From assembly GCA_947088765.1 (NCBI GenBank), contig CAMUHU010000011.1, forward strand, positions 1 through 33,995: a DNA stretch of 33,995 nucleotides, in the 5' to 3' direction. Source of the stretch: an uncultured Clostridium sp. (GTDB lineage: Bacteria; Bacillota; Clostridia; TANB77; CAG-508). A program made the translations under genes and the position numbers. Each line of letters opens with the position of its first letter. Within the stretch, counting starts at the first letter, position 1. This document shows, in pieces, positions 2,999 to 27,279 of this stretch. The notes under the pieces are model-generated. The model saw only the letters and a program-made list of their open reading frames with translations, was not told the DNA's origin and did no database searches.

Positions 2999-3087
2999 CC
3001 CTAGTTCTCCATTTCATAATTTTTCTATTCTTGAAAAGTTATCATGGTATGATAATTTCTAAGAATATATTTCGTTTTTTATAATAT

Positions 3088-3216
3088 TTAATTTACTAGT
3101 TTTGTTAATGTTTCTTGTAATATCTTTTTACTTTTTTTTAGTGTTTTTTTATCTGCTTGCTTTAATTCTTCCTCTGTAAATTTTATGTTATAGTCTTCAA
3201 ATATAATTTCTTCCAT
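3088..3216 (-). CDS. Small hypothetical protein, 42 residues
   Basis: The short ORF starts MEEIIFEDYNIKFTEEEL and ends LTKLVN. Its ATG (3214-3216) is preceded by a strong GAAGGAG at good spacing, and its composition (acidic start, Lys-rich helix) looks like a real cytoplasmic peptide. It lies 89 bp upstream of the 150-residue gene on the same strand and may be the first gene of that unit. No family recognised. The rest of 2999-3346 contains only the LPxTG gene's terminator at its upper end. Confidence 0.6.
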   Translation of the reverse strand: MEEIIFEDYNIKFTEEELKQADKKTLKKSKKILQETLTKLVN

Positions 3217-3294
3217 AAGCTTTACTCCTTCACTACTACTTTTTAGATAATACTATAATTTCTCATTTTTTTCAATAGTTTCCTTAAAATATTC

Positions 3295-3326
3295 AAAAAA
3301 GGACACATTTGTTGTATGTGCCCTTT
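3295..3326 (-). terminator. Rho-independent terminator after the LPxTG gene
   Basis: On the minus strand, AAAGGGCACAT and ATGTGTCCTTTTT form a stem with one G-U pair around the loop ACAACAA, ending in a T run. It lies about 20 bp beyond the gene's stop codon. Confidence 0.85.
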
Positions 3327-3346
3327 AAAATTATATTTCTATTTTT

Positions 3347-3700
3347 CTACATATTATAATCTTTTACTTTTTTGAATGCATATATTCCAGCTATTGTACA
3401 AACTACCATTAATCCTATAATTATATTTTCATTAGTACCTGTCTTTGGTAATGTTTTATTAGTGTTTGTTGTATTGTTTGTTATACTAGTTATTGGTGTT
3501 GTATTTGCTGTATTTGTTGCAGTATTTCCTGTTGTATTAAATAATTCTGTTGATGTGTTTGTTTGTTGCAAATTACTTGTTTCATTTCCTTCTCCTAATA
3601 TTTGGTCTATTGTCTTAGCTCCAACTGTGCATGTTTGAATTATTATTAAACTTAAAACTAATAATAAAATGAAAATCTTTACTACCTTATTTCTACTCAT
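3347..3700 (-). CDS. Small LPxTG cell-wall-anchored protein
   Basis: The 117-residue protein has an N-terminal signal peptide (basic MSRNKVVK, then a hydrophobic run to about residue 27) and a Thr/Asn-rich low-complexity middle (about 40-82). A sortase signal follows: LPKTG at 84-88, a hydrophobic segment at 92-109 and a basic tail (KKVKD). Sortase would link it to peptidoglycan. No folded domain is evident, so it may be a spacer, adhesin stub or stalk. No sortase gene is in the window. It is last in a run of three exported proteins and has its own terminator. Confidence 0.85.
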   Translation of the reverse strand: MSRNKVVKIFILLLVLSLIIIQTCTVGAKTIDQILGEGNETSNLQQTNTSTELFNTTGNTATNTANTTPITSITNNTTNTNKTLPKTGTNENIIIGLMVVCTIAGIYAFKKVKDYNM

Positions 3701-3807
3701 ACCTTTTCTCCTTTTCTTTTATTATATAACACTTAATATAAGTTATACTATATTTTTATTTTTTTTGCAATAGTTTTTTTTACTTTTTTAGTTTTTTTTA
3801 CATTCTT

Positions 3808-5121
3808 TTAGAAATGTCTTCCGATTTTGCCTGTTTCTATTGCAATATTTTGATTTCTTACTTTTACACCTTTATCTTCTATATCATCTTCTATTATTAA
3901 ATCACCGTCTGTTGATTCATCAAACTCTTTACTAAGCATATATGAAAGGATTATATATCTTATTGCAATTATTCCTAATGAGCAAATCATTAATATAGAT
4001 AAAATTTCTTTTAAATTACCAGCTATAAATTTATTATTCCCATTATCTTTTTTATTATCAGTATCATCTGTCATTCCAACTATTTCTTGTTGTTCTGTTT
4101 CATTTTTCAAGTCTATAATATATACAGAACTTTCTTCTCCTAATGTTACTGTAATTTTTATTACATTATCTCCTTCTTTTAATTCAGTTGCTCCTTCTAT
4201 GTCTATTTTTGCATCCGCCATATTTGCTGTTGCATCAATTTCCAATTGTTTCATGTTTTTCACATTTGTTGTATAAGAGTAAATTTCTGGATTAAATTCA
4301 GGATTTAGTTCTACATCTTTTATTATTAATGTTGTCAATTTCGGTTTTGTTTCTTGTGTTATTGGTACATCTGGTATTTGTGTTTGGTCATCTATTATGT
4401 TTGGAACTGTAGCATCATCTGCTAATCTTATTATATTGACATTATATGTTTTTTTCGTTCCATTTTCAGCAGTTACATTTATTTGAAATTTATTTGTTTG
4501 CCCTGCTACTAATGATTTTGTTCCTGTCCCACTTACTGTTGCTTTACTATGATTTTTTGTTGCACTTATTTTTATTGAGTTTACTGATGATTCTGCTGTA
4601 TAACTAATTGTATTTTTTAATGATGAACCTGAGTATGTTTTTCCTCCAATTGTTATTGATTTTAATGTTGCATCACCTGATTTCGTAGTGCTTGGTTGAC
4701 TTGGTGTTGTCGGATTTGTTGGGTTTGATGGTTGATTTGGTGCTGGTGTGTTGTTTGCACTTACTGTTATTGTTACCGATTTTGGCGATGTTATTAAATT
4801 TAAGTCTGTATCTGAAACACTTACTGGTGTAACTGTTATTGTTGCTGTTCCTGCTCCTTTTGCTGTTAAAGTTATATTTTCACTACTCGATACCCATAAT
4901 GATGATGTTCCAACAGTCACTACACCTGGGTTTGATGATGTTACATTAAATTTTCCTTCCGCATTTGTAGTTTTTATAGTTAATGTTGCTGTTTTACCAG
5001 GTGTTAATGATTTTGATGATGCCGATACAGAGTAACTCCCAGCTGCATAAACTATAGATTGTAGCGAAATTAAAAACATTGTAATAATTATGAAAATTAG
5101 TATTTTTTTAACTGTTTTCAT
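3808..5121 (-). CDS. Membrane-anchored surface protein with Ig-like and cadherin-like domains
   Basis: The 437-residue protein has a signal peptide (about 1-27) and an Ig-like beta domain (about 30-120) with the TSSNPGVVTV pattern of bacterial Ig-like folds. A Pro/Thr/Ser linker follows at 122-147. Two beta-sandwich repeats come next (about 150-232 and 260-342), with LKSITIGG...TYNVNII and LTTLIIKD...VYIIDL signatures like the 'cadherin-like beta sandwich' family. A transmembrane helix (about 365-390) precedes an acidic cytoplasmic tail. It is probably extracellular and membrane-bound. It lies 51 bp downstream of the glucosaminidase gene, so they are likely co-transcribed. Ligand unknown. Confidence 0.85.
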   Translation of the reverse strand: MKTVKKILIFIIITMFLISLQSIVYAAGSYSVSASSKSLTPGKTATLTIKTTNAEGKFNVTSSNPGVVTVGTSSLWVSSSENITLTAKGAGTATITVTPVSVSDTDLNLITSPKSVTITVSANNTPAPNQPSNPTNPTTPSQPSTTKSGDATLKSITIGGKTYSGSSLKNTISYTAESSVNSIKISATKNHSKATVSGTGTKSLVAGQTNKFQINVTAENGTKKTYNVNIIRLADDATVPNIIDDQTQIPDVPITQETKPKLTTLIIKDVELNPEFNPEIYSYTTNVKNMKQLEIDATANMADAKIDIEGATELKEGDNVIKITVTLGEESSVYIIDLKNETEQQEIVGMTDDTDNKKDNGNNKFIAGNLKEILSILMICSLGIIAIRYIILSYMLSKEFDESTDGDLIIEDDIEDKGVKVRNQNIAIETGKIGRHF

Positions 5122-5172
5122 TTTTAATATCCTTCCTTTCTTAAGGTATATACCTTTTAACTTTTGTTTTAA

Positions 5173-6828
5173 TTACATTGTTATTGATGATGTACCCATT
5201 ATATGATTTTTAATTTTCATATAATCTCTTGCATCTATTATTCCATCTGAATGTACTTGTGATGCTTTTTGCTCTATTTCATTTAATGTTGAAATCCCCA
5301 TTATATGATTTTTGATTTTCATATAATCTCTTGCATCTATTACTCTGTCTGCATATATATCTCCTAATACTACTACTTCATATTCTATTCCATCTATAGT
5401 AAATTTATCCCCTGTTGTTAATGGATAATTCGATTCTAATGGTCTTAAATCTCCTGCTCTTGCTGAATAATTTGTTACTGATAGACTACTTGCTATTTCT
5501 GCTATTGTTTTCCCAGGTATTGCAATTAGATTTTTTCCTTCTATTTTCGCAATTTTGTTTCCTGCTCCATTATTACATGGTGCTAAGTATTTATTTGCTA
5601 TATATCCTACATTTCCGTTTGAAAGTTGTACTTTTGCCCACTGTAAGTTATTTGCTGTTCCTGCATTAAATTCTAATACTGTAACTACTTCATTTTTTTG
5701 TAGTGTCGCAAGTATACTTGATGATGTTGTTGGTGATTGTCTTAGTCTTACATCACTTCCGGTTAAATAATATGAGCTTGGATGTGTTGTGTCTATAGTT
5801 GTTGGTAAATTATTTGCTTGTGGCATATTGTTATAAACTGGTATTATAAAATTTAATGAAGAGTTCAGTAAATTATTTTTTGCATATGTATTAAATAAGT
5901 TTTTTGCTTGACTTGATGGGTCTTGAATATTTGTCATATATTGATGCTTGAATAATTGCGAAATTTCTGTACCTACAACATCCCATTTATAGAAATATGC
6001 TGTATTTTGTCCTGCATTTGTATATGAGTTTGCCATTTTTTTAGCACCTTCTATAATTGATATATATTGATTTGTCCATCCATTTGCTTTTGCATATTCT
6101 AGTCCATTTGCTATTGCATCTCCTGTGTCATATGCACCATAGTTGAAAAAGTTATAATAATTATCATATACTGTTCCATTTTTTGCTACATAATGTCCAG
6201 ATACTGAATTGCTTCCATTTCTTCCTACTTCTTGTATTATTTTTATTGCTATACTATATGGACTCATTTTGCTTTGTTTTGCTGCTTCCATTATTATCCC
6301 AGAGTATGGCATTGTACATTCTGTTCCATTTAAGTTAAATGTTACAGTTGTATTCATAAATGTTGAAGCTATAATTCCTTTAACTCCCTCTTCTGTTTGT
6401 GAATTTGGATTATATGTCATTTCTAAAAACTGAAATATTCCTGATTCGTTTAAAAAGTTTCTTGGATCTGAATAGTATTTTAATATTGGTGTTGAAGCAC
6501 ATGCATATCCACTAGCAACTTGTCCACAACTATCTAACCATAAACCATTTGAAGATTTTATAACTGTATTTCTTAAGTGTAGTGATGTTTCTTCTCTTAT
6601 AAATTCATCCCAATTTATTCCTGTATTAAATGCTGTAAATGTCCAGTTTGGGTATAGTGATTTTAATTCGTTTAATTTTGTTTGATAACTTGCTGGGAAA
6701 TTAGATATGCCTGTATTAGTTGTTTGCGTATATGTACTTGCTTTTACATTATCTGGAATATATATTATTTGAATTATTAATATTACACAAAATATCAAAA
6801 TTAATATTTTTTTCTTGTGTAGTTTCAT
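5173..6828 (-). CDS. Secreted glucosaminidase-type autolysin with SH3 and dockerin-like domains
   Basis: The 551-residue exported protein has a signal peptide (1-30) and a cell-wall hydrolase region (about 45-330) that opens with LNELKSLYPNWTF, a start typical of clostridial N-acetylglucosaminidase-like proteins. Further on, EVGRNGSNSVSGHY and YNFFNYGAYDTGDA fit that family. A bacterial SH3 domain follows (about 345-415), then a small beta domain. The end has two copies of IDARDYMKIKNHIMG, each after a calcium-loop-like Asp pattern, resembling a type I dockerin pair. The second loop lacks Asp at its first positions. It probably cleaves peptidoglycan glycan chains outside the cell. The dockerin-like tail suggests docking to a cohesin partner, which is inferred. 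It has its own promoter. Confidence 0.88.
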   Translation of the reverse strand: MKLHKKKILILIFCVILIIQIIYIPDNVKASTYTQTTNTGISNFPASYQTKLNELKSLYPNWTFTAFNTGINWDEFIREETSLHLRNTVIKSSNGLWLDSCGQVASGYACASTPILKYYSDPRNFLNESGIFQFLEMTYNPNSQTEEGVKGIIASTFMNTTVTFNLNGTECTMPYSGIIMEAAKQSKMSPYSIAIKIIQEVGRNGSNSVSGHYVAKNGTVYDNYYNFFNYGAYDTGDAIANGLEYAKANGWTNQYISIIEGAKKMANSYTNAGQNTAYFYKWDVVGTEISQLFKHQYMTNIQDPSSQAKNLFNTYAKNNLLNSSLNFIIPVYNNMPQANNLPTTIDTTHPSSYYLTGSDVRLRQSPTTSSSILATLQKNEVVTVLEFNAGTANNLQWAKVQLSNGNVGYIANKYLAPCNNGAGNKIAKIEGKNLIAIPGKTIAEIASSLSVTNYSARAGDLRPLESNYPLTTGDKFTIDGIEYEVVVLGDIYADRVIDARDYMKIKNHIMGISTLNEIEQKASQVHSDGIIDARDYMKIKNHIMGTSSITM

Positions 6829-21717: not shown

Positions 21718-22127
21718 CTATCCTAATGCAATGTCTAGTATCATCATTACTGCAAAACCTATAGTTACACCAATTACTCCTAACATAGACTTTTTTCCAC
21801 TATGCATTTCTGGAATTAATTCTTCTACTACTACAAATATCATAGCACCTGCTGCAAAGGCTAATAAATATGGTAATATTGGTACTACTATATTTGTTAA
21901 TAATACAGTTATAATAGCTGCAATTGGTTCAACTATACCTGACATTACTCCATATAAAAATGCCTTTCCTTTACTCATTCCTTTCATCTTCAAAGGCATT
22001 GAAATTATTGCACCTTCTGGGATGTTTTGAATTGCTATTCCTATCGCTAAAACAACTGCTTCTAGAAAGCTTATTCCTGCATTTCCTGCCAAAAATCCTG
22101 CAAAACATACACCTACTGCCATTCCTT
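21718..22127 (-). pseudogene. ZIP-family metal transporter, 3' fragment separated by the element
   Basis: The C-terminal 134 residues of a ZIP transporter run from MAVGVCFAGFLAGNAGIS to ILDIALG, with the metal-site segment AIQNIPEGAIISMPL and the later FVVVEELIPEMH. ZIP proteins carry zinc, iron or other divalent metals inward. The codons upstream of this ATG (PEG) belong to the same frame and, across the inferred crossover, continue the 5' fragment's LHNIPEG. The ATG at 22122 might still be used as a start, but half a transporter should not work alone. A hairpin follows the stop. Confidence 0.93.
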
Positions 22128-22147
22128 CTGGTTTTGGTTAAAGTAGA
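22119..22147 (-). other. Right attachment site (attR) of the 4.8-kb element
   Basis: On the minus strand, the element arm TCTACTTTAACC (22147-22136) is followed by AAAA-CCAGAAGG and the ZIP codons ATGGCAGTAGG. The shared core CCAGAAGG (22131-22124) is repeated at the other end. The half-site TCTACTTTAACC is the near-perfect inverse (11 of 12) of the arm at the other junction. Confidence 0.85.
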
Positions 22148-22209
22148 ATGTAATCTATTTTTTATTTTGACTAATTTAACATTGGATATTAGATTAATCA
22201 AATTGTTTA

Positions 22210-23142
22210 TTATTCTTTTAATAATTTTAAATATAAATTAATCATTTCTTCTACTTGATTTATAACCATAATTACAAAATCTGTATAGTTACCTGTCATA
22301 GCTCCGTTATCCAAAGCATCATAATATTTATGTCTTTCTTCTGTTTTTATTATTATTGGTGGATAACCATTTTTCATAACTTCAAAATTCATTAATAATC
22401 TTGCTGTTCTTCCATTTCCATCTATGAATGGATGAATTTTAACAAACTCTGCATGTAATAATGCTGATACAACAATTGGATGATATTTTTCTTTCCATTC
22501 ATAGTATCTATAAATCAGTTTTTCCATAAGTTCTGGTACAGTTACTGACTCTGGTGGTATATGAGTAGCACCTGATATAATCACATTTTCTGTTCGATAT
22601 CTTCCTGCATTTTCATTATCAATTCCTTTTAATACAATGGCATGGATATTTTTTATATCCATTTCTGTAAGTTCATTATTATCTTTTACTAATTCTTCTA
22701 AAAATTCAATTGCTTCCTTGTGATTAATTGCTTCTAAATGTTCTCTCATAGTTTTTCCACCAATTGTAATTCCTTCTAATACTACTTTCGTTTCTTTCAA
22801 TGTTAATGTATTTCCTTCAATAGCATTGGAATTGTATGTCCATTCTAATTTAAAATTTTCTTCTAATGATTTTAATGTTTCTTTTGGAAATGGCCTTTTA
22901 CTGTCTAATATATCTTTCTTTTTATCTAATTTATCGTAAACACTATTTGGTATATCTATAATAAATTTATCTTCTTCAATTTTATATCTTTTATCTCTTG
23001 GTTTATTTGTTTCTTCTGGTATATTCCAAGCATTTCCTATTTTTACAGCTCCGTCTATTCTATTCTCTTCAATTAATCTTCTAATTCTTCTTTCACTTAT
23101 ATTCCATAAGTCTGATGCTTGTTTTAACGAAATATATCCCAT
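22210..23142 (-). CDS. Fic-domain protein with N-terminal helix-turn-helix
   Basis: Fic proteins usually transfer AMP from ATP onto target proteins. From the ATG at 23142 it has 310 residues; a GTG 9 bases earlier is possible. The N-terminal domain (1-50) GYISLKQASDLWNISERRIR with GNAWNIPEE looks like a MerR/excisionase-type DNA-binding fold. The Fic core holds the catalytic HPFIDGNGR (237-245) and, upstream, SNAIEGN (105-111), which fits the (S/T)xxxE(G/N) self-inhibition motif. It sits at the end of the mobile element behind its own promoter with an operator-like palindrome. It could be a regulator, a toxin with built-in inhibitor, or a defence factor. Confidence 0.93.
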   Translation of the reverse strand: MGYISLKQASDLWNISERRIRRLIEENRIDGAVKIGNAWNIPEETNKPRDKRYKIEEDKFIIDIPNSVYDKLDKKKDILDSKRPFPKETLKSLEENFKLEWTYNSNAIEGNTLTLKETKVVLEGITIGGKTMREHLEAINHKEAIEFLEELVKDNNELTEMDIKNIHAIVLKGIDNENAGRYRTENVIISGATHIPPESVTVPELMEKLIYRYYEWKEKYHPIVVSALLHAEFVKIHPFIDGNGRTARLLMNFEVMKNGYPPIIIKTEERHKYYDALDNGAMTGNYTDFVIMVINQVEEMINLYLKLLKE

Positions 23143-23161
23143 TTTTCTCACCCCTGCACAT

Positions 23162-23191
23162 ATTGTACCACGTTTGGTATAATATAGTCAA
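23162..23191 (-). promoter_or_regulatory. Promoter of the fic gene with TACCA/TGGTA palindrome
   Basis: TTGACT (23191-23186), an 18-bp spacer and TACAAT (23167-23162). TACCA-AACG-TGGTA (23179-23166) overlaps the -10 region and is a candidate site for the Fic protein's own DNA-binding domain. Confidence 0.65.
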
Positions 23192-23196
23192 TATAA

Positions 23197-24759
23197 TTAT
23201 TCCAATATTGATATAATTTTATTCAATTTTTTAAAATTGAAATATATATCTATTTGTTTATCTTGATGGATTTTTATTCTACTTATAATTACTTTCATCA
23301 GTTCAGGAGTTGGTTCTTCTAGATTTAAAAACTCCTTAACTATCTTTGTAATTTCGTTGCTGTTATCTTCTTCTATATCTTTTTTATTTTGCTCTATTTC
23401 TTCATATTGCCTATATCTTTCTTTTATTTGTTCATTATATTTGTTTAGCACTCTTTCACAAATTTCCTCTGTAATTTTCCCTTCTAATTTATCCATATAC
23501 ATTTTATCAAGATGGCTTTTTATTAGTTCTATTTCTTTTTCTAGATTTTCTAGTAGTTTTTTGTAGTCATAGACTGTTTTACTATTTTTTATATTAAGTT
23601 CTATTTTTTTACTGTCTATATCTTGAAATAGCTCTTTTATATAGTTTAAAATTTTATTTTCTAAGCATTCATAACTAAAACCGTGACAAGTACAAATTTT
23701 AAGTTTTGAGTTCCTACGATAGTTATTACATATTGTAAAGTATTTCTCACTTCTTGTGTCCTTTTTTATTCCTATTTTATGCCCACATTCATAGCAATAC
23801 AACAGTCCATCTAATAAAGTATAATTCTTTTTTTCTTGCCTTTCGTATTTTTGAATAATTACCATTTTTTGCACTGCCTCATAAGTTTTTTTATCTATGA
23901 TTGGTTCATGGGTATTTTCTACAACATACCACTTTTCTTTTGGATTTTCTCTCATTTTTCTATTTTTATAACTTATTCTACTTCTTTTATTTTGCACTGT
24001 TACTCCTGTATATATTTCGTGTGATAATATGTTTTTTATAGTCTTATTACTCCAAAATGTAGCCTTATTATATCTTAAACTGCTCGCTGTTGGAATTTTG
24101 TTATAATTTAAATACTCTCTTATTGCTCCTACTTGATTTCCTGATTTTGCCATATCAAAAATAGTTCTTACAATTTCTGCTTCTTCTTCACAGATTACTA
24201 AATGATTTTTATCTTCTTTGTCTTGCACATAACCTAATGGTGTCTTTCCTCCTACCCATTTACCTTGTTTTTGCATTGTATGCAATGCTGTTCTTATCTT
24301 TTTTGATAGATCCTTAGAGTACATATCATTTAATATTGATTTGAATGGTGCAATGTCATTATTTCCGTTATTATCCAAAAAAGTATCTATTCCATCATTT
24401 ACTGAAACATATCTAATATTTTTCTCTGGAAACCAATTCTCTATATATTCCCCTGTTCCTATGTAATCACGACCTAAACGAGATAAATCCTTTGTTACCA
24501 CCATATTTATTTTATCTTGTTCAATATCATTAATCATTCTCGTAAACTCTGGCCTATTGAAATTTGTTCCCGTATAGCCTTGGTCTATATAGATGTCTAT
24601 TAGTTCATATTCTTCTCCTAGATTTTTTACATATTCTGTGAGTAGTATTTTTTGATTTTTAACGCTTTCACTATCGTCATATCCCCTGTCAATGTCTTCT
24701 TTAGATAATCTTATATAAATTGCAACTTTAAAAATCACATTCTTTATTCTTTCAAGCAC
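23197..24759 (-). CDS. Large serine recombinase (integrase)
   Basis: Site-specific recombinase that catalyses integration and excision of the element. It has 520 residues. The N-terminal catalytic resolvase domain runs to about residue 150, with Ser19 as the expected nucleophile in YIRLSKED; DQGYTGTNFNRPEF and TKDLSRLGRDYIGTGEYIE are typical. The recombinase domain (TPLGYV onward) is followed by a zinc ribbon (YCYECGHKI...CNNYRR...CTC) and a long coiled-coil region (about 380-470). It belongs to the clostridial Tn5397 TnpX / Tn4451-like group. The start is GTG, with AAGGAGG 5 bases upstream, and a hairpin spans both. Confidence 0.96.
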   Translation of the reverse strand: MLERIKNVIFKVAIYIRLSKEDIDRGYDDSESVKNQKILLTEYVKNLGEEYELIDIYIDQGYTGTNFNRPEFTRMINDIEQDKINMVVTKDLSRLGRDYIGTGEYIENWFPEKNIRYVSVNDGIDTFLDNNGNNDIAPFKSILNDMYSKDLSKKIRTALHTMQKQGKWVGGKTPLGYVQDKEDKNHLVICEEEAEIVRTIFDMAKSGNQVGAIREYLNYNKIPTASSLRYNKATFWSNKTIKNILSHEIYTGVTVQNKRSRISYKNRKMRENPKEKWYVVENTHEPIIDKKTYEAVQKMVIIQKYERQEKKNYTLLDGLLYCYECGHKIGIKKDTRSEKYFTICNNYRRNSKLKICTCHGFSYECLENKILNYIKELFQDIDSKKIELNIKNSKTVYDYKKLLENLEKEIELIKSHLDKMYMDKLEGKITEEICERVLNKYNEQIKERYRQYEEIEQNKKDIEEDNSNEITKIVKEFLNLEEPTPELMKVIISRIKIHQDKQIDIYFNFKKLNKIISILE

Positions 24760-24783
24760 TTAAGCCTCCTTCCCATGCTTGAA
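24751..24783 (-). promoter_or_regulatory. Hairpin enclosing the recombinase ribosome binding site and start codon
   Basis: On the minus strand, TTCAAGCA and TGCTTGAA (8 bp, perfect) enclose TGGGAAGGAGGCTTAAG. The Shine-Dalgarno sequence is in the loop, and the GTG start is partly in the 3' arm. This should limit translation of the recombinase. Confidence 0.7.
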
Positions 24784-24788
24784 ATTTT

Positions 24789-24845
24789 TGAATTCATACT
24801 TTGATTATAACTTTAGAAAAATATATAAGTCAAGCACTGAATTCA
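24789..24845 (-). promoter_or_regulatory. Recombinase promoter flanked by TGAATTCA palindromes
   Basis: TTGACT (24833-24828), an 18-bp spacer and TATAAT (24809-24804). TGAATTCA occurs on both sides (24789-24796 and 24838-24845). TCAAGCACT at 24830-24838 recurs over the start codon (24752-24760). Confidence 0.7.
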
Positions 24846-24868
24846 AATATAATTATTTAAGCATTAGG

Positions 24869-24970
24869 CTATTTACTTTCTAATAATTTCTTCAAATAGA
24901 ATGCCAATATACTTTCTAACTCTTCTCCTTCATCGTTAAAATAAACATTTATCTTAAAATCATTTTCCAT
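24869..24970 (-). CDS. Small ORF, 33 residues, upstream of the recombinase
   Basis: The peptide starts MENDFKINVYFNDEGEELES and ends AFYLKKLLESK. The ATG (24970-24968) follows a strong AGGAGGAAAGACAAT. It sits between the GNAT terminator and the recombinase promoter. Tiny ORFs just before the recombinase are common in clostridial elements, but I do not recognise this one. It could be an excision factor or regulator; no evidence separates these. Confidence 0.65.
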   Translation of the reverse strand: MENDFKINVYFNDEGEELESILAFYLKKLLESK

Positions 24971-25009
24971 ATTGTCTTTCCTCCTGATAAAATATATTAA
25001 GTGAAATAT

Positions 25010-25038
25010 AAAAAAAGAAGAGATTTTTTATTCTCTTC
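25010..25038 (-). terminator. Terminator after the GNAT gene
   Basis: On the minus strand, GAAGAGA and TCTCTTC (7 bp) pair around ATAAAAAA and are followed by a TTTTTT run, about 75 bp beyond the GNAT stop. Confidence 0.8.
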
Positions 25039-25111
25039 CATACTATTATTATAAATGATTTAATTATTAAAACAATGAAATGATTTTGAAGTGTTTTTGA
25101 AATTATCTGTT

Positions 25112-25588
25112 TTATACTATTCTCATTGAATATGCTATACTCTTTACTTTAAAACCAAATTTTTCATATATCTTTATTGCATTTTCATTTTCTTCATTAA
25201 CTGTTAAATACATATCAGTACAATTAATTTCTTTTCCAAATTCTTTAGTATATTGTAATATAGCTGTTCCAATTCCCTTGCCTCTATTTTTTTCATCTAC
25301 ACATATTGCATCAATTTGTAATTGTTTCCTGTATCTCATACTAGGATTATTTTTTTCTTGGATACTAAAAGTAATATATCCTACAATTTCACCTTGTAGT
25401 TTTGCCACTAATATGTTTTTGGCTTGTATCATCTCTTCAAAATTTTCTTTACTAATTACTTCATCTACATCTAAAAATAAATCTGGTCTCCAGTTTATAT
25501 GTATCTTATGTACTTGTTTTGCTAATTCATTTACTCTATTAAAATCTTTTATTTTCGGAATTTCTATTAGTAATTCCACTCTAAACAT
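25112..25588 (-). CDS. GNAT-family N-acetyltransferase
   Basis: Transfers an acetyl group from acetyl-CoA to an unidentified substrate. It has 158 residues. The CoA-binding motif A is IDAICVDEKNRGKGIGTAIL, with RGKGIG at 102-107. Motif B/C follows: YLTVNEENENAIKIYEKFGFKVKSIAYSM. The start follows GAGAGGGAG. It is cargo of the mobile element, between the Abi_2 gene and the recombinase, and may act as a resistance enzyme, a toxin-like acetylase or a metabolic passenger. Nothing in the sequence decides this. Confidence 0.9.
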   Translation of the reverse strand: MFRVELLIEIPKIKDFNRVNELAKQVHKIHINWRPDLFLDVDEVISKENFEEMIQAKNILVAKLQGEIVGYITFSIQEKNNPSMRYRKQLQIDAICVDEKNRGKGIGTAILQYTKEFGKEINCTDMYLTVNEENENAIKIYEKFGFKVKSIAYSMRIV

Positions 25589-25626
25589 CTCCCTCTCTAT
25601 TAAGTTATAGTTAGTATATTATCGCA

Positions 25627-25713
25627 AAAATTTCTTATTAATAACCCTCTATTAGTATCCTACGCAGGAAAGTGTTAATAAGAAACGCCCAAAACGCATA
25701 AAAGGTCAAGCCT
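25627..25713 (-). other. Structured non-coding stretch between the Abi_2 and GNAT genes
   Basis: On the minus strand, AAAAGG-CTTGA-CCTTTT forms a small hairpin. It is followed by an outer stem TTTCTTATTAA / TTAATAAGAAA that encloses a small inner stem TCCT-GCGT-AGGA. No ORF with a ribosome site fits. It may be the Abi_2 mRNA end plus a regulatory or RNA element. Confidence 0.45.
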
Positions 25714-25778
25714 TTTAGTTTATTAATTTTGATTTTTCCTATTAAGATTTAATAAATTTCCCGCCCGTGGTAATTTTA

Positions 25779-26714
25779 CTATTTCATATCATTTATTAAA
25801 TTTTCATAATCTCTTACAAAACCCATCTTATTTAAAATTTCTGAAAATTCGATTGACTTAATTTTATTTTCTAATTTTTTAATCTCATTAATTACTATAT
25901 CATAAAATTCCTTAAATTCTTCCTCATTTAACAATACTTTTAAAATTATCACTATTGAAAACAAATCCTTAAATCCCTTTGCATATTGACCATTCTGCAA
26001 TAATAAATTTAAATTTGTATGAATATCATTTTGCATTATAGTATTTTTTAATCTAATATCATATAATTTTTCGTCATGTGCACATATATTTCTAATAATA
26101 GCTAAATTGTGTATATATGTTTTTAATTCTTTTTCTCTTATTCCAAATTTTTTAGCAACTCTATTTTGGTCTTGCTGTTTCATTAGGTCATAAAATTTTG
26201 AAATTTGCCCAAATGTTATAATTCTAATTAACACCCATAATGGAATATATCCATATTGTGCCATATAATGTTTAAGCATTTCATTTCCATTTTTTCTTTG
26301 TGTATTTATATTACTGTTTATATCTGCAACAAGACTTTTAATTTTTAAATCTGTTATTTTGCTGTTATTATTAAAATTAGATACTACAAGATAATTTTGT
26401 TCTCCATATTGCTTTGAGAATTCATAAGCAATATATGTATCCATTCTTCTTTCTATTTTTAGAATATATTTCAAAAAAGCACTTCTTATTTCACTATCAA
26501 ATTTATATAGTGCAAATATTTCTTCAAGTGTTGCTCCTTCTATATATTTTTCTTCTTCACTGTTCTTATTCAAAAACAAGTCTTTATATCCATTTATTAA
26601 ATAATAGTAACTGTTATCTTTAAATATTTCTTTTGCCTTTTCTTCATTGATAATTAAATTACGTTCTTTTAAAATCTCTATTTGTTCTTCTATTGTTTTA
26701 AATTCTTTGTTCAT
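25779..26714 (-). CDS. Abi_2 family (AbiD/AbiF-like) HEPN protein
   Basis: Member of the abortive infection group, first known from lactococcal phage-resistance plasmids. It has 311 residues. The N-terminal KTIEEQIEILKERNLIINEEKAKEIF and YYYLINGYKDLF, then LYKFDSEIRSAFLKYILKIERRMDTYIAYEFS, are the family pattern. The HEPN RNase motif is present as RNICAH (Arg208 to His213, R-X4-H), followed by DEKLYD. This predicts an RNA-cutting activity that would stop growth on phage infection. A promoter and a terminator-like hairpin RNA lie immediately upstream of its TAGGAGC site. It is the first gene of the element. Confidence 0.93.
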   Translation of the reverse strand: MNKEFKTIEEQIEILKERNLIINEEKAKEIFKDNSYYYLINGYKDLFLNKNSEEEKYIEGATLEEIFALYKFDSEIRSAFLKYILKIERRMDTYIAYEFSKQYGEQNYLVVSNFNNNSKITDLKIKSLVADINSNINTQRKNGNEMLKHYMAQYGYIPLWVLIRIITFGQISKFYDLMKQQDQNRVAKKFGIREKELKTYIHNLAIIRNICAHDEKLYDIRLKNTIMQNDIHTNLNLLLQNGQYAKGFKDLFSIVIILKVLLNEEEFKEFYDIVINEIKKLENKIKSIEFSEILNKMGFVRDYENLINDMK

Positions 26715-26730
26715 TTAATTGCTCCTAACT

Positions 26731-26777
26731 AAAAAAACAACTCCGGGCCTCATAGGTTTCCGGAGTCTCGATCTACT
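26731..26777 (-). ncRNA. Candidate abiF-type small structured RNA upstream of the Abi_2 gene
   Basis: A predicted transcript of about 47 nt starts near 26777. It contains ACTCCGG-AAA-CCT-ATG-AGG-C-CCGGAGT, that is a 7-bp stem with an asymmetric internal loop and an upper CCT/AGG stem, then TG and seven Ts. It thus ends as a rho-independent terminator just before the Abi_2 ribosome site. From general knowledge, a conserved RNA motif named abiF is reported upstream of Abi_2-type genes; this assignment is by position and shape, not by a model search. Confidence 0.7.
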
Positions 26778-26783
26778 AAATAA

Positions 26784-26813
26784 AGTATAACATACTAAGT
26801 TTTAGTCTGTCAA
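26784..26813 (-). promoter_or_regulatory. Promoter of the RNA / Abi_2 unit
   Basis: TTGACA (26813-26808), an 18-bp spacer and TATACT (26789-26784). It sits about 7 bp before the predicted RNA start and inside the element, so the cargo does not depend on the ZIP promoter. Confidence 0.82.
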
Positions 26814-26889
26814 TACTCTACATTATATATTTTATTAAATTTTTAAGTATTTATCCCTATTTTTGTTAAGTTTTTGAATTCAAATTATT

Positions 26890-27279
26890 TCAAGCATTTT
26901 CATACACTCTACTTTTACCCATACCTTCTGGAATGTTATGTAGTGTAACTGAAAATAATAACATGTTTAGTTTTTTACCATTTGGCTTATTTTCAAACCT
27001 CTCAGCAATTTTGTTTATGAGAAGTAAAAATATAACTCCTAATAATAATCCAACTGTTGCTGGTATCCAAGATATTACTCCCTGATTTTCAGCCATTTCT
27101 ACAGCTGGAAGTATAAGCGACCATACACTTGCTGCAATCATGACCCCTGATGCAAATCCTACAATTATTTTTTGAAATCTTTCACTCATGTTTTTTTTCA
27201 TGAAAAATACAAAACCACTTCCAAAACTTGTTCCAATAAATGGAATTAAGATTCCTCCAATACTATATAATATATTCAA
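26890..27279 (-). pseudogene. ZIP-family metal transporter, 5' fragment truncated by the element
   Basis: 129 codons. Residues 1-119 are the ZIP N-terminal part, with three membrane helices, the loop region AERFENKPNGKKLN and the metal-site start LFSVTLHNIPEG. The last ten codons (MGKSRVYENA) are contributed by the element. The start is a TTG 10 bases after GGAGG. Joined to the fragment at 22122 the protein would be about 253 residues, the ordinary ZIP length. In the inserted state the transporter should be inactive; excision would restore it. Confidence 0.93.
26908..26935 (-). other. Left attachment site (attL) of the 4.8-kb element
   Basis: On the minus strand, the ZIP codons CATTCCAGAAGG are followed by TATGG and the element arm GGTAAAAGTAGA (26919-26908). 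The shared CCAGAAGG is at 26931-26924. After the junction the ZIP frame reads GKSRVYENA and stops at 26890. Confidence 0.85.

Follow-up and report, generated by a model that had tools for sequence, protein, structure and literature searches.

A predicted AbiF-type toxin-antitoxin module with a hairpin RNA distinct from the Rfam abiF motif, carried on a mobile element of an uncultured Clostridium

The locus, its toxin gene and the element that carries it

The window, by which is meant the whole stretch of 33,995 nucleotides that was analysed and that stems from a gut bacterium, holds on its minus strand a compact module in which a promoter is followed by a leader, a hairpin, TG, a T7 tract, the ribosome-binding site AGGAG and the ATG of a toxin gene at 26714. 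The features are as follows.

22124-26931, no strand assigned: mobile element of about 4.8 kb that carries Fic, large serine recombinase and GNAT genes and the AbiF module (from the uninterrupted site in same-genus genomes and from domains)
25779-26714, minus: AbiF/AbiD-type HEPN toxin gene, 311 aa, intact (Pfam Abi_2, PADLOC AbiD, structural match 8vz6)
26076-26093, minus: RNICAH, the R-x4-H HEPN active-site motif, residues 208-213
26722-26726, minus: ribosome-binding site AGGAG (from sequence)
26731-26737, minus: T7 tract, terminator tail (from sequence; present in most close homologues)
26731-26778, minus: predicted short RNA of leader, hairpin and U-tract, about 42-48 nt, its ends placed from sequence and fold
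26740-26766, minus: two-part hairpin ACTCCGG-AAA-CCT-ATG-AGG-C-CCGGAGT (covariation; R1 model match of 35.1 bits)
26770-26777, minus: unpaired 5' leader AGUAGAUC
26784-26813, minus: promoter TTGACA-18-TATACT with extended TG, 11 of 12 consensus bases

The 311-aa product is, on its sequence profiles and modelled fold, a member of the AbiF/AbiD family. It matches Pfam Abi_2 (PF07751) at 9.2e-46 (156.9 bits, the cut-off being 25.6) and is labelled AbiD by PADLOC (5.6e-64), and R208, N209, A212 and H213 of the active-site motif are invariant across 26 homologues. The AlphaFold2 model (pLDDT 91.4) has a sole significant fold match in the PDB, the PbAbiF dimer with its ncRNA (8vz6; E 2.8e-11, TM 0.78/0.82), with which the sequence profile result agrees (1.3e-39). 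No ToxN fold was found among the significant domain and structure matches, the fold being that of AbiF/HEPN, and the protein has a single RNICAH rather than the two HEPN motifs that are a trait of Cas13. An Abi_2 gene with an R-X4-H motif behind a TTGACA-18-TATACT promoter had been recognised in an earlier note made from the sequence alone, and both identifications held up.

The element is bounded by CCAGAAGG repeats at 22124-22131 and 26924-26931 and interrupts a ZIP metal-transporter gene at HNIPEG-M, at what looks like an integration hotspot. The site is uninterrupted in genomes of the same genus (G057, G114 and G030), and G079 also has an uninterrupted gene. In L001 the AbiF is 83% identical and a ZIP gene or recombinase is absent within the 7 kb examined, so the toxin-RNA unit travels apart from the element too. 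The CCAGAAGG copies at the element ends are flanked by imperfect inverted arms (window 21718-27279). In the sister genome G097 a different serine-recombinase element occupies the same ZIP site (L137, G097:C63, about 3009-6003).

Conservation and structural class of the hairpin RNA

The hairpin has the geometry 7bp-3nt-3bp-3nt-3bp-1nt-7bp, with one unpaired nucleotide only on its 3' side. When the sequence is folded by itself the result stands out only moderately (z -2.49, with 5 of 200 shuffles equally good), so the case was built on comparison, and it is conservation that decides whether the hairpin is real. A simple terminator scan did not call the hairpin at the locus, probably on account of the internal loop.

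Close relatives were defined by a protein identity of at least 50% (L001, L003-L007, L010, L017 and L029). The promoter, leader and hairpin were found in every one of these with the upstream region present, and the T-tract in most; both promoter hexamers are kept, in contrast to the promoter spacer and the more distant upstream DNA, which diverge. Across eight distinct rows, which had not been chosen for showing a hairpin, every row pairs throughout stem 1, three pairs have both sides changed and are compensated, and the leader bases A-G-x-A-G-A-T are invariant. The earlier note had described a two-part hairpin (ACTCCGG/CCGGAGT with an upper CCT/AGG) followed by T7 and had staked its reading in part on conservation upstream of close homologues; the structure is present at 26766-26731 on the minus strand and that conservation is seen.

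An examination of the wider class showed that 20 distinct hairpins align gap-free in the same geometry, with 95% of cells paired, a percentage that is inflated as some of the rows were selected by eye for the hairpin. Cells changed on both sides numbered 61 against 19.4 in shuffles, and the covariation score was 0.824 against 0.358, the signal dropping sharply once the partners were slid. The hairpin is conserved across genera and families. That it might be a chance structure or an assembly artefact without function, for which the moderate folding z-score could be cited, is very unlikely, this reading being largely refuted by the conservation results: there is compensatory change, the conservation extends over genera and families, and the RNA class tracks the toxin clade.

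The covariance search with Rfam abiF (RF03085) that the earlier note had proposed gave no match in the window at the gathering score, nor even at E 10, and none at the relatives tested; no other Rfam family matched in the window at the gathering score. The layout of RF03085 is 6-1-3-11-3-6-6 against 7-3-3-3-3-1-7 for the window RNA; each is a small hairpin of two stacked helices that precedes Abi_2 genes. Conversely R1, the model of the hairpin class built in the present analysis, had no match at loci with RF03085-like RNAs (L047-L058, L060, L061, L063 and L064, with L051 and L059 left out as other types). In a tree of 52 toxins those with an RF03085-like RNA, a label assigned by visual inspection of the upstream sequence, form a single clade (SH-aLRT 99), and the RNA class tracks the toxin clade with 9 changes against 27.9 in shuffles. 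A supported clade of seven Abi_2 toxins from the same bacterial family (L008, L009, L011, L012, L015, L020 and L021) has no recognisable upstream hairpin. The link to abiF drawn in the earlier note is sound as regards protein kinship (Abi_2, AbiD, 8vz6) but not as regards identity with the Rfam motif. In its leader and in the geometry of its internal loop the window RNA stands apart from Rfam abiF and forms a structural class of its own. AbiF with an RNA antitoxin is already known as a kind of system; what Rfam lacks is this RNA class.

A shorter GC-rich hairpin variant (GUCCUCCGGUGUCC...), which differs little among the three loci L037, L043 and L051, lies before Abi_2 genes there, with R1 scores of 15-16 bits only. 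Weak R1 matches in the class-wide search (E about 0.009 and up, e.g. L121-L129) mostly came without promoter and leader, look like chance and were rejected. A scan of viral_contigs found no close relatives.

Copies of the hairpin and loci without a toxin

The window has one R1 copy and no tandem-repeat antitoxin array of the kind that is a trait of classical type III toxin-antitoxin systems. The statement of the earlier note that there is no repeat array is accurate for the window but does not extend to all relatives, as two tandem hairpins occur in L003, L017, L084 and L099, two being the maximum number of upstream copies seen among relatives. Six loci of another clade (L013, L014, L018, L019, L023 and L028) have a further hairpin right after the toxin gene, and in the phage contig L069 a second hairpin with its own promoter-like sequence lies 3' of the toxin gene; the resulting arrangement in all seven is RNA-toxin-RNA. 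In another toxin clade (e.g. L038, L041, L069 and L070) the hairpin is followed by a further stem-loop, rich in GC and with a T-rich tail, which the scan called a terminator in L041 and not in L040. As the hairpin is kept despite a separate downstream terminator it is not merely a terminator.

A search with R1 of 195 genomes of the family gave 32 places in 27 genomes. About 14/32 had a sizeable Abi_2 frame downstream, others having short toxin remnants only (e.g. L077, L078, L098 and L101). Profile searches found no Abi_2 near the hairpin at L080, L083, L084, L087, L089, L090, L091, L094, L096, L099, L100 and L103. At seven loci (L080, L083, L084, L090, L091, L096 and L100) a promoter-like sequence, leader, hairpin and T-tract are present without an intact toxin gene, and some of these toxin-less hairpins adjoin a few codons of toxin remnant. 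Loss of the toxin with retention of the RNA is what an RNA antitoxin would predict and is suggestive only. A caveat that must be applied to the toxin-less loci is that the model search itself picks well-kept hairpins; conservation of the RNA at these loci was accordingly rejected as proof of selection.

These copies also bear on whether the hairpin acts in cis only, holding down toxin expression as a leaky terminator or leader with no role in trans. The hairpin with its T7 does resemble a terminator, and for AbiD1 of L. lactis plasmid pIL105 an abundant 50-b transcript ends at a terminator just before the gene, control being reported as translational via the phage protein Orf1 (PMC2661086). 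However, the unpaired leader is invariant, for which a terminator alone is an insufficient explanation, and hairpins are kept with a separate terminator, after the toxin gene, and at lost or truncated toxins. A purely cis-acting attenuator is thus considered rather unlikely.

Proposed mode of action and comparison with known systems

The preferred interpretation, with a probability of about 0.78, is that the locus is an AbiF-type toxin-antitoxin or abortive-infection module in which a short hairpin RNA restrains the HEPN toxin. The fold, the R-x4-H motif, the covariation, the invariant leader, the conserved promoter, the agreement of RNA class with toxin clade, the hairpin retained ahead of a separate terminator, the tandem, post-toxin and toxin-less copies and the precedents of RCd22 and AbiD1 all argue for it. 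The existence of a related toxin clade without such a hairpin argues against it, as does an RNA fold unlike those of RCd22 and RF03085. The earlier note had been reminded of RNA-antitoxin loci by the layout of the sequence, and the succession of promoter, short and apparently attenuated RNA and HEPN RNase gene, together with the conserved hairpin, makes that analogy a well-grounded one.

A single promoter would give rise to a short RNA consisting of the unpaired leader and the two-part hairpin and ending in a U-tract. To judge from the signals present, most transcripts would stop at the U-tract and the RNA would be in excess, whereas rare read-through would supply the toxin mRNA. By analogy with PbAbiF-ncRNA and RCd22-AbiFCd the RNA may bind the AbiF HEPN dimer and block the R-x4-H RNase site; were the supply of RNA to fail, e.g. 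after an infection or once the element has been lost, unbound toxin would be expected to cut RNA and growth to stop. The hairpin is a probable antitoxin as well as an attenuator, and homology makes it most likely that the window RNA combines attenuation with a trans-acting, protein-binding antitoxin role.

Among the most similar systems is AbiFCd-RCd22 of Clostridioides difficile phi027, likewise with a Sigma-A promoter, short RNA, terminator and Abi_2/HEPN toxin gene (PMC12373285). RCd22 acts as an attenuator of its abiF gene; it also neutralises AbiFCd, both in cis and in trans, and the RNA and the toxin co-purify (PMC12373285). RCd22 has two hairpins, as do the relatives L003 and L017. Unlike the window RNA, it contains RF03085 motifs and has its terminator as a separate element, whereas in the window a single hairpin with a different geometry also serves as the terminator. 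PbAbiF-AbiFr (8vz6) shares the protein fold, the HEPN motif and an associated small RNA, at about 20% protein identity. PbAbiF is reportedly inhibited by its ncRNA AbiFr through single-stranded bulge nucleotides (PMC12737573), and in contrast to the bulge described for AbiFr the window RNA has one unpaired 3' nucleotide. AbiD1 is alike in its AbiD/F-family protein and in an attenuated 50-b transcript before the gene, a likeness drawn from the published description. Type III systems (ToxIN and its kin) also combine an RNA antitoxin, a leaky terminator and an RNase toxin as one unit. The fold of ToxN is different and the ToxIN antitoxin is a tandem-repeat RNA processed by the toxin; the window locus lacks a repeat array and its toxin is of the AbiF/HEPN fold.

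It has also been reported that AbiF with its RNA is the ancestor of Cas13 (PMC12737573), which could favour a Cas13-like precursor in which the RNA leads the HEPN protein to its RNA targets, and the earlier note had allowed for such guidance. This suggestion was abandoned as highly improbable, the least likely of the readings considered: the single-stranded leader is conserved and not variable, an array or spacer-like segment is absent upstream of the gene, and the antitoxin RNA in studied AbiF relatives is non-guiding (PMC12373285). No part of the RNA shows the variability expected of a guide.

For an RNA that restrains the toxin, its fold, unlike those of RCd22 and RF03085, means that inhibitory contacts are not simply transferable from those RNAs, and with only one unpaired 3' nucleotide they are likely to be different. 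Such contacts could be made by the conserved leader and the 5' internal loop. A more tentative proposal, which we hold to be possible rather than probable, is that the hairpin represents an AbiF antitoxin RNA class of its own, which inhibits the HEPN dimer via the leader and 5' internal loop and not via the bulge of the AbiF RNAs studied so far, and that solitary and toxin-flanking copies, present in many genomes, protect the cell as antidotes against incoming AbiF elements. Having two RNA classes paired with one toxin fold provides a comparison set for RNA recognition by HEPN dimers, the solitary copies allow direct testing of small RNAs as antidotes to AbiF-bearing mobile elements, and a covariance model of the hairpin class detects AbiF-type loci that Rfam misses.

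The same RNA class was also seen before a MazF/PemK gene at L103 (1501-1527). A new pairing of the RNA with MazF (L103/L142) was rejected and the association treated as incidental, since a 97% identical MazF in G107 (L143) has a decayed hairpin only and others have none. In a single further case, L099 (G140, 1460-1527 and downstream), the same RNA class precedes an MntA-HepT pair.
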